From contig JAUYHD010000032.1 of NCBI GenBank assembly GCA_030690215.1, positions 1 to 47,663 of the forward strand: DNA of 47,663 nt, in the 5' to 3' direction. Position numbers and translations under genes: made by a program. The first letter of the stretch is position 1; each line of letters starts with the position of its first letter. The notes below the pieces were generated by a model. That model was given only the letters and a program-made list of their open reading frames with translations. It was not told where the DNA came from and did not search any database. Positions 38,033-41,843 of the stretch are shown here, piece after piece. The stretch comes from a bacterium (GTDB lineage: Bacteria > Patescibacteriota > Minisyncoccia > 1-14-0-10-42-19).

Positions 38033-38074
38033 AAGCCCTGCCAGGAAGAAATTCTTGACAGGGCTTCTTTTTTT
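38033..38074 (+). terminator. Terminator of the band-7 operon
   Basis: AAGCCCTG and CAGGGCTT form a stem extended by internal CA/TG pairs, followed by CTTTTTTTG. Confidence 0.9.
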
Positions 38075-38126
38075 GTGTGGAGTATGGTATTTTGAGGTAA
38101 GTCCTTATGATTTTTTATATTTTTAT

Positions 38127-38180
38127 GCGCCCGTAGCTCAATTGGATAGAGTGTCTGGCGGAGTTTATCCCGCTTAAAGC
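38127..38180 (+). pseudogene. Truncated 5' half of an Arg-type tRNA
   Basis: GCGCCCGTAGCTCAATTGGA and the D-arm continue to 'GAGTGTCTGGC', very like the 5' half of the adjacent tRNA, but the sequence then runs into a CCCGC-TTAAA-GCG hairpin and no T-arm or acceptor partner follows. It abuts tRNA-Arg(TCG) exactly. Confidence 0.75.
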
Positions 38181-38254
38181 GTCCCCGTAGCTCAATTGGA
38201 TAGAGTGTTTGGCTTCGAACCAAAAGGTTGGGGGTTCGAGTCCCTCCGGGGACG
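38181..38254 (+). tRNA. tRNA-Arg (anticodon TCG)
   Basis: The acceptor GTCCCCG pairs with CGGGGAC. The D-arm is GCTC...GAGT. The anticodon arm TTTGG-CTTCGAA-CCAAA has anticodon TCG. The T-arm is GGGGG-TTCGAGT-CCCTC, and the discriminator is G. CCA is not encoded, consistent with the CCA-adding enzyme downstream. Confidence 0.95.
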
Positions 38255-38470
38255 CTTTGTGCGGGAGACCAAGAAGTTGGGGGTTCGCCAGGTCATCCGA
38301 CCTGGCGCCCAGTCGAATGACTGGGCGAGTCCCTCCGGGGACGCTTTGTGCGGGAAACCAAAAAGTTGGGGGTTTTCCCGATTTGTCCAAAATTTTTAAC
38401 GAAGTAAAAAAAATTTTGGCAACAAATCGCAATCCAGTCGAATGACTGGGCGAGTCCCTCCGGGCGTACT
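38255..38470 (+). repeat. Two 3'-half copies of tRNA-Arg interrupted by hairpins in the T-loop
   Basis: After the intact tRNA, the stretch from the anticodon 3' stem through GGGGGTT recurs twice (from about 38269 and 38356). In each copy the T-loop is split. The first insert is CCAGGTC-atcc-GACCTGG plus CCCAGTC-gaat-GACTGGG (38288-38325). The second is a ~20-bp hairpin (38380-38428) plus CCAGTC-gaat-GACTGG. After each insert the T-arm resumes as CGAGTCCCTCCGG. Confidence 0.85.
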
Positions 38471-38496
38471 ACGGAGGAAGAAAAATTTTTAATCAT

Positions 38497-39081
38497 ATGC
38501 AGAAAAGAGTTTTTATAATTCACATGTGGGATAGCCACCCCAAAGATGGATGGTATCCTTGGTTGCAAAAGGAGCTTGAAGGCAAGGGTTTCCAAGTTCA
38601 GGTTCCGGCTATGCCGGAGCCAGCCAAGCCAAATATAGAGAATTGGGTTTCGCGCCTCGCAAAAATAGTCGGCAATGTTGATGAGAATACTTTTTTCGTT
38701 GGCCATAGTGTTGGTTGCCAAACTATCCTTCGATATTTTGAAAATTTACCTGCCGATAAAAAAGTTGGTGGCGCGGTTTTCGTGGCTGGCTGGCTTAAAC
38801 TCGTGAACTTGGAAACCGAGGAAGAAAAAGAAATTGCGAAACCGTGGTTGGAAACTCCGATTGATTTCAACAATATTAAACAACATACTACTAAATTTGT
38901 TGCTATCTTCTCTGATAATGATCAATGGGTTTCTATTGATAACAAAGCTTTGTTTGAACAGAAATTAGGGGCAAAAACAATTATTGAAAACCAAAAGGGC
39001 CATATCAGTGGAGATGAAGGAATTGCTGAATTACCAAGCGCCCTAGAGTCAATAGTGAGTTTTTCTGACTTAAACTTATGA
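38497..39081 (+). CDS. RBBP9/YdeN-type alpha/beta serine hydrolase
   Basis: This 194-residue protein matches the RBBP9/YdeN family: 'VFIIHMWDSHPKDGWYPWLQ', the nucleophile elbow 'FFVGHSVGCQTILRYF', the acid in 'AIFSDNDQWVS' and a terminal 'KGHISGDEG' with the catalytic His. Substrates of bacterial members are unknown. GGAGGAAG (about 38474-38481) lies 15 bases upstream as a possible but distant ribosome site. It overlaps the next gene by 4 bases. Confidence 0.88.
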   Translation: MQKRVFIIHMWDSHPKDGWYPWLQKELEGKGFQVQVPAMPEPAKPNIENWVSRLAKIVGNVDENTFFVGHSVGCQTILRYFENLPADKKVGGAVFVAGWLKLVNLETEEEKEIAKPWLETPIDFNNIKQHTTKFVAIFSDNDQWVSIDNKALFEQKLGAKTIIENQKGHISGDEGIAELPSALESIVSFSDLNL

Positions 39082-39595: not shown

Positions 39596-39749
39596 TCCTC
39601 GATTCCGCATAAAGCGGAATCGGGACTCAACAGGCATAGTTATATTGTCCCCGTAGTCCCGACATCCTATTTTATATAAAATAAAGAAGTCGAGGATCCT
39701 CGATTTCGCTTAAAGCGAAATCGGGACTCAGTGGACATATTTCTGTTGT
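39596..39749 (+). repeat. Tandem hairpin units upstream of tRNA-Arg(CCG)
   Basis: Two related units begin TCCTCGATT: CGATTCCGC-ataaa-GCGGAATCG (39600-39622) and CGATTTCGC-ttaaa-GCGAAATCG (39701-39723). Each is followed by GGGACTCA, a variable stretch and TGTCCCYGTAG, the first bases of a tRNA. In the first unit the tRNA start breaks off after GTCCCCGTAG; in the second it continues as the intact tRNA. Confidence 0.8.
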
Positions 39750-41437: not shown

Positions 41438-41470
41438 CGGGCTGTAGTATACCGGTAGTACCCACGCACT
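41438..41470 (+). pseudogene. Detached 5' half of a second tRNA-Pro
   Basis: CGGGCTGTAGTATACCGGTA followed by GTACCCACGCACT matches the 5' half of the intact tRNA-Pro below but has its own acceptor CGGGCTG. It breaks off at the anticodon loop and runs into a GCACTAAA-tcaaag-TTTAGTGC hairpin. Its acceptor partner CAGCCCG is found at 41649-41655. Confidence 0.8.
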
Positions 41471-41509: not shown

Positions 41510-41616
41510 CCCGCACCAAATTTGCCGGGACATAGTATACCGGTAGTACGCACCCTTCGGGAGGGTGTAGACTGGGTTCGATTCCCAGTGTCCCGATTCG
41601 AAAATTTTGGTGCGGG
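41510..41616. repeat. Inverted repeat framing tRNA-Pro(CGG)
   Basis: CCCGCACCAAA (41510-41520) and TTTGGTGCGGG (41606-41616) flank the intact tRNA-Pro at near-equal distance. Confidence 0.8.
41526..41596 (+). tRNA. tRNA-Pro (anticodon CGG)
   Basis: The acceptor CGGGACA pairs with TGTCCCG. The anticodon arm is CACCC-TTCGGGA-GGGTG with anticodon CGG. The T-arm is CTGGG-TTCGATT-CCCAG and the discriminator is A. No CCA is encoded. Confidence 0.93.
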
Positions 41617-41621
41617 GCGGG

Positions 41622-41656
41622 AGTGTGTAGACTGGGTTCGATTCCCAGCAGCCCGA
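41622..41656 (+). pseudogene. Detached 3' half of a second tRNA-Pro
   Basis: AGTGTGTAGACTGGG, TTCGATTCCCAG and CAGCCCGA form an anticodon 3' stem, T-arm and acceptor 3' strand. They complement the 5' half at 41438-41470 (CGGGCTG with CAGCCCG; GCACT with AGTGT). The two halves are separated by about 150 bp that include a whole tRNA-Pro. Confidence 0.8.
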
Positions 41657-41693: not shown

Positions 41694-41704
41694 GTACACG
41701 CATT

Positions 41705-41839
41705 GCTGGGAATCGAAGGATATTCTAAAAAATAAACTGCTTTATTTTTTAGAAATCCGGGCTCTGAAGGAGGAGAGAGCCTGTTCCGCTATAGCGGAAC
41801 GCTGCGAACGATGGGTAAAGAGGATTCCCAGCGGCCCGA
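41705..41839. repeat. Mosaic of tRNA-Pro fragments and hairpins
   Basis: This stretch holds an inverted T-arm fragment (GCTGGGAATCGAA, 41705-41717), TTCTAAAAAATAAA-ctgc-TTTATTTTTTAGAA (41723-41754), GGCTCT/AGAGCC, the palindrome GTTCCGCTATAGCGGAAC (41783-41800) and another tRNA 3' end (GATTCCCAGCGGCCCGA, 41823-41839). No complete tRNA or ORF is present. Confidence 0.75.
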
Positions 41840-41843
41840 TAGT

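Follow-up and report, generated by a model that had tools for sequence, protein, structure and literature searches.

How does a complete transfer RNA (tRNA) gene come to lie between halves of genes of its own kind, some of them split by perfect hairpins? The question is raised by a tRNA-Arg(TCG) locus on contig JAUYHD010000032.1 (47,663 nt, here the window) of GCA_030690215.1. This 1.02-Mb, 96%-complete genome of the Paceibacteria (G000) lies near Candidatus Niyogibacteria, with a CCA-adding enzyme 75% identical to that in JACQLG010000054.1. A first-pass annotation had described two tandem 3' halves of tRNA-Arg(TCG) split by hairpins, and we found these at 38267-38467, following a complete gene at 38181-38255. 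The annotation saw only the 3' halves and overlooked the 5' half upstream (38127-38159), the nesting, an anticodon-targeting hairpin family and the whole tRNA or 5S ribosomal RNA (rRNA) genes carried as cargo. The complete tRNA-Arg(TCG) is nested within a broken, older tRNA-Arg(TCG) at 38127-38467.

All features of the locus are on the forward strand. The 5' half of the outer, resident gene begins GCGCCCG, is broken in the anticodon arm (38127-38159) and has an uninterrupted ortholog in the sister genome G002. Next come the left cassette arm TCCCGCTTAAAG (38168-38179), the inner complete tRNA-Arg(TCG) (38181-38255; called by ARAGORN and scoring 70.1 bits in Rfam) and the right cassette arm CTTTGTGCGGGA (38255-38266), whose first base is also the 3'-end base of the tRNA. 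The same arms surround tRNAs in 8 genomes, against 0 in a reversed control. A first 3' half (38267-38344), a repeat copy of the CTTTGTGCGGGA arm (38344-38355) and a second 3' half (38356-38467) follow, both halves being split in the T-loop. The second ends in CGGGCGT, which pairs with the GCGCCCG of the outer 5' half. With a 5' half upstream and its pairing partner downstream, an older tRNA-Arg gene thus encloses the complete one. G002 has the corresponding empty site, an uninterrupted GCGCCCG...CGGGCGC gene with a matching upstream flank. The outer halves in the window have lost the anticodon. An Rfam scan of the window at the gathering threshold returned no family except tRNA, and the relaxed threshold gave weak chance-level matches only.

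The first 3' half is split by a double hairpin of the family we call F1 (38287-38326), which lies precisely at the TTC^GA junction of the T-loop. It consists of two perfect 8-bp hairpins, GCCAGGTC-ATCC-GACCTGGC (38287-38306) and GCCCAGTC-GAAT-GACTGGGC (38307-38326). The second 3' half contains a composite insert, in which a long hairpin after GGTT (38375-38433), assigned over 38375-38437 to a second family, F2 (TTCCCGATTTG...CAAATCGCAATCC; 62.2 bits), is joined at 38434-38449 by a second hairpin, the CCAGTC-GAAT-GACTGG that the first 3' half also has. The first-pass statement that both copies are split at the same T-loop position is thus correct to within 1 nt (TTC^GA versus after GGTT), and each copy has a different insert. 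The pattern CCAGTCGAATGACTGG occurs in 6 copies in the 1.02-Mb genome and in none in the reversed control. All 6 lie within tRNA T-arm remnants, and the pattern is not due to chance.

An F1 element in general consists of two perfect hairpins of 8 bp whose tips, GTC-ATYC-GAC and GTC-GRAT-GAC, are inverse to each other. Among nine copies in G000 every hairpin cell is paired, with two-sided changes at seven hairpin pairs. Many other T-arm hairpin loci were found in this genome, and a covariance model of the F1 T-arm double hairpin matched 41/324 genomes of the Paceibacteria. These and the following surveys used metagenome-assembled contigs with one genome per species. The R1 and R2 models were made from hits, and their counts depend on the seed loci, the genomes themselves being independent. 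The F1 junction fell at TTC^GA of the T-arm in 21/29 loci by script, compared with 0.1% at random positions, and in 25/29 loci by eye. The automatic T-loop test did not align L298, L301, L303 and L304, whose hairpins are shorter or more numerous, and by eye these four are T-arms. Such recurrent junctions across many genomes give strong support to the suggestion in the first-pass annotation that a small palindromic element targets T-arms.

F2 has the architecture TTCCCG-hairpin-GCAATCC-[second hairpin]-GGA. It folds as a double hairpin whose second stem runs on into a tRNA cloverleaf in the second loop (z -8.2). A strict pattern gave 23 matches in 18/383 genomes and 0 in the control; about 20 of the 23 are within or adjoining tRNA genes, with the tRNA start 6-23 bp away in most. 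More F2 matches were found beyond the class Paceibacteria. Insertion occurs without target duplication, and tRNAs are cut mostly at 34^35 or 35^36, within the anticodon. Across broken tRNAs the break points concentrate at 34^35, 35^36 and C56. The target positions -3 to -1 were T (25/36), T (35/36) and G (23/36), showing a preference for TTG. F2 runs sense to some of the broken genes and antisense to others, an arrangement that argues against insertion at the RNA level.

Often the second hairpin of F2 encloses a complete tRNA whose isoacceptor is that of the broken gene. The inner-arm pattern CCCGCNNAAAGN{71,100}TTTGTGCGGGA, whose spacing fits a tRNA and which itself contains no tRNA letters, matched in 8/383 genomes (control 0), and all 8 matches enclosed a complete tRNA, either Arg, Val (four) or Ser (three). 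Computed deletion of TTCCCG...CGGGA produced intact tRNAs with the anticodon of the cargo at two Val loci and a Ser-GCT locus; at Ser-GGA the tRNA folded but the anticodon call was four bases long. One F2 copy in G000 that interrupts a 5S rRNA brings a complete 5S rRNA with it (L271:888-993 and L271:1578-1683), and the nesting rule is therefore not limited to tRNA. Upstream of this nested 5S rRNA is a weak group I intron match (29 bits, below the cut-off) beside the 3' part of a 23S rRNA. Distant from tRNA genes, locus L255 of G555 contains tandem repeats of about 920 bp with the F2 variants TTCCCGTTTTGTC...ACAAAACGCAATCC.

Of the 43 tRNA genes examined in G000, 18 have partial copies of their own kind alongside, with 0 in a reversed-flank control. 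The same was found for 16/46 tRNA genes in G010 and 5/44 in G002. Scanning 190 tRNAs across all loci, we found the outer 5' halves upstream and the 3' ones downstream, always sharing the strand of the tRNA, with 0 outer halves on the opposite strand. Where a sister gene was available for comparison, the shell is often of the resident type, whereas the gene within it belongs to another allele. The Ser-GCT shell matched the sister gene at 40/40 positions versus 32 for the inner copy, and the Cys shell at 39/39 versus 25. At the Cys locus, allele A surrounds allele B in G002 and B surrounds A in G000. The inner Arg-TCG resembles the gene of G001, and the inner Arg-CCG of locus L071 that of G002. 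A tRNA-Trp locus of G000 (L046, contig C17) has four nested 5' halves, and its 3' pieces mirror their order (A B C A B* A C B A).

Nesting, ends conserved across families, precise junctions, empty sites and strand agreement are thus all shown. We propose, with a probability of about 0.7, that small double-hairpin mobile elements home to the loops of structural RNA genes and bring with them cargo that replaces the broken gene. Each element would be a very small piece of mobile DNA that has no gene and consists of a pair of adjoining hairpins, its ends short, conserved and unpaired. Insertion would be precise and without target duplication, at TTC^GA of the T-loop for F1 and after about TTG for F2. 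Many F2 copies hold, in the loop of the second hairpin, a complete tRNA for the isoacceptor they interrupt (in one case a 5S rRNA), and it lies on the strand of the broken gene. The resident gene would become a broken shell as the cargo takes over, and repeated rounds could build Russian-doll loci such as 38127-38467. The broken genes being essential, survivors would be those whose cargo provides the same RNA, and selection would probably retain only insertions that supply a working copy on the same strand. Co-orientation of shell and cargo would be expected if the cargo uses the resident promoter. The elements probably move as DNA, presumably through a trans-acting enzyme that recognises a folded strand and a short target.

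Several observations count against this proposal. About three of the 29 F1 sites and 3/23 F2 sites are outside RNA genes, and TTG is not an invariable F2 target (it is TTA at Val). F2 copies without cargo, with a bare second hairpin, occur at L236 and L265, so cargo may have been gained before or after insertion. Many loci carry several overlapping inserts whose junctions cannot all be resolved, and at several the order of insertion is not resolvable. No excision, circle or recent transposition was seen in this sample of one genome per species, and the elements were unmatched in viral contigs, phages and plasmids. Two candidates for the enzyme are not universal. The Y1 transposase domain (PF01797) had no match in 7/23 element-bearing genomes (G010, G012, G040, G076, G091, G287 and G300), and reverse transcriptase (PF00078) had none in 10/23, including G000, G010, G012, G035, G058 and G091.

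The alternative that survives best, though we consider it unlikely, is homing or allele replacement by recombination, in which a nuclease cuts resident RNA genes or imported DNA replaces them, nested alleles spread through gene conversion between related species, and the hairpins are passengers or repair scars. The resemblance of the Arg cargo alleles to the genes of relatives fits this explanation, as does the finding that outer and inner copies are always on one strand. Putative GIY-YIG/HNH endonuclease open reading frames, identified by reading only, also lie directly beside tRNA-Lys and tRNA-Leu (L047, L051 and L050). However, conversion does not yield a gene nested between the fixed ends TTCCCG...CGGGA. 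Across unrelated families, the cargo between the same ends ranges from Arg, Val and Ser tRNAs to 5S rRNA, and a cargo-less element occupies the same site at L236.

A less probable explanation is that these are eroded conventional integrative elements, placed by a tyrosine recombinase at tRNA loops. The anticodon loop and T-loop are classical integration sites in tRNA genes, and copies of a further structured family, F5, which stand in tandem at the Ile and Met genes of G010, are accompanied by a repeat of the tRNA 3' end that resembles attL/attR. The F1 and F2 elements nevertheless leave neither a direct repeat nor a gene. The direct crossover repeat that a tyrosine recombinase should leave was absent from F2 junctions, and F2 removal restores the target exactly.

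It is very unlikely that the shells are themselves functional RNA, either as split or trans-spliced tRNA halves or as a maintained RNA scaffold around the tRNA. The loss of the anticodon from the outer halves in the window, the occurrence of F2 on both the sense and antisense strands of genes, and the lack of an Arg shell in the sister species G002 all argue against such a role, although the outer acceptor stems still pair and the hairpins covary. Local replication errors, in which template switching or slippage at cruciforms makes hairpins and partial copies in place, are highly improbable. The first-pass annotation had offered slippage at a cruciform as a possible mechanism, and the palindromes, which are perfect, covary between their arms and contain few G-U pairs, would indeed fit arm-to-arm correction. 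That idea is contradicted by the recurrence of the same element sequences, with precise ends, at the same tRNA positions across many genomes and families, by complete replacement genes as cargo, and by nested genes and shells that are different alleles. An assembly artefact, a concern raised by metagenome-assembled contigs, is scarcely credible given that the pattern recurs in dozens of independent genomes, including the one-contig G058, the nine-contig G091 and the record JACQLG010000054.1.

To place the proposed mobile elements among known systems, we compared them with published and familiar cases. Their anatomy is like that of mitochondrial double-hairpin elements and REPIN/PATE-type hairpins, but they failed tests for features of the RAYT, group I intron and integrase systems. 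Fungal and sponge mitochondria contain double-hairpin and repetitive hairpin-forming elements (PMC2800124 and references there). Compared by description, these are likewise short and gene-free, with one or two hairpins, diverse stems and scattered insertion that includes RNA genes, and the two adjacent hairpins without coding capacity that define them were found here. Ours differ in inserting precisely and repeatedly at particular sites of tRNA loops, in having defined unpaired ends and in bringing whole tRNA or 5S genes as cargo. Tycheposons and other tRNA-targeting integrative elements are also mobile, tied to tRNA genes and carry tRNA sequence. They are 4-200 kb long with recombinase genes and the tRNA at their border (PMC10872708), whereas the elements here are about 60-160 bp, gene-free apart from RNA and inside the target gene.

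Rickettsia palindromic elements (RPEs) are about 100-150 bp long and mostly in protein genes. By description they share with our elements the form of small palindromes within genes of a reduced bacterial genome; in-frame sites in protein genes characterise RPEs, and most sites examined here were in RNA genes. We know of no RPE cargo and no homing of RPEs to anticodon or T-loops. Group I introns of bacterial tRNAs share the anticodon insertion site, but the broken gene here is replaced, not spliced, and cmscan of 38050-38520 at the relaxed threshold gave no intron match.

REP/REPIN-RAYT systems are alike in their inverted hairpin pairs, lack of target duplication, structure-based recognition and short target. 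A short target on one strand without duplication was found here too, in the precise junctions, the T at -2 in 35/36 sites and the TTG preference. The precise junctions, short target and recognition of structure plus motif resemble single-strand transposition of non-autonomous elements, the most likely mode of action. Y1/RAYT was rejected as the mover, being absent from several element-bearing, even element-rich, genomes. The RAYT-type Y1 transposase on contig C15 of G000 (L138/L270) is flanked by different palindromes of its own, GTGCAAGACC...GGTCTTGCAC, and the transposase copy on C11 has no F1- or F2-like palindrome. Reverse transcriptase was rejected because it is not universal among element-bearing genomes. 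Guide-target pairing of GCAAT with ATTG was dropped, the motif being unchanged where the target changes to TTA at Val.

The papers searched contained no description of nested tRNA genes or gene-in-gene nesting of this kind. Somewhat short of an even chance, in our judgement, is the wider claim that these constitute a new minimal class of mobile element (about 60 bp plus cargo, without a protein gene), homing to the loops of essential structural RNA genes and surviving there by supplying a working copy of the gene it destroys, so that the tRNA and 5S genes of a whole class of bacteria have been serially replaced by foreign alleles. If true, essential single-copy RNA genes, generally regarded as stable and vertically inherited, would be exchanged by tiny pieces of selfish DNA within a bacterial radiation that ranks among the largest. 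This would matter for the evolution of tRNAs, for the annotation of tRNA and 5S genes in metagenome bins and for the question of how elements without genes move. The empty sites, fixed junctions and covarying stems would offer a natural system for seeking the recombination enzyme.

Related remnants surround the second tRNA-Arg of the window, Arg(CCG), and its tRNA-Pro, again on the forward strand. The 5' start of another tRNA-Arg(CCG) allele, GTCCCCGTAG (39647-39656), resumes as CTCAGTGGA (39727-39735) past a hairpin insert in the D-arm, the palindrome TCCCG...CGGGA of family F3 (39657-39726). This remnant agrees with an uninterrupted start in G002 and with the inner tRNA of L071. An inner complete tRNA-Pro(CGG) (41526-41596) lies between the 5' half of an outer tRNA-Pro, CGGGCTG... 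(41438-41468), and its 3' half, ...CAGCCCGA (41618-41656), which pairs with CGGGCTG.

Further element families were also observed. F5 occurs in the window at 41704-41842, at L046, L048 and L056 and at many G010 loci. Its order is a terminator, the T-stem reverse complement, GAAGGG-hairpin-CCC, a GGAGGA-type segment and the repeated tRNA 3' end from the T-loop. F4, a double hairpin GGGC-hairpin-GCGGGCRRCTACAATGTTTC...GCCCAGGA, occupies the D-loop, variable arm or anticodon loop of broken tRNAs at six G010 loci (L180, L186, L190, L191, L195 and L196). Cassettes of a third type, with the ends GCCCCCACACC...GGTGTGGGGG(TGAA) or TTGCCC...GGGTGAA, enclose Arg, Gln, Gly and Pro tRNAs at L071, L281, L041 and L292.
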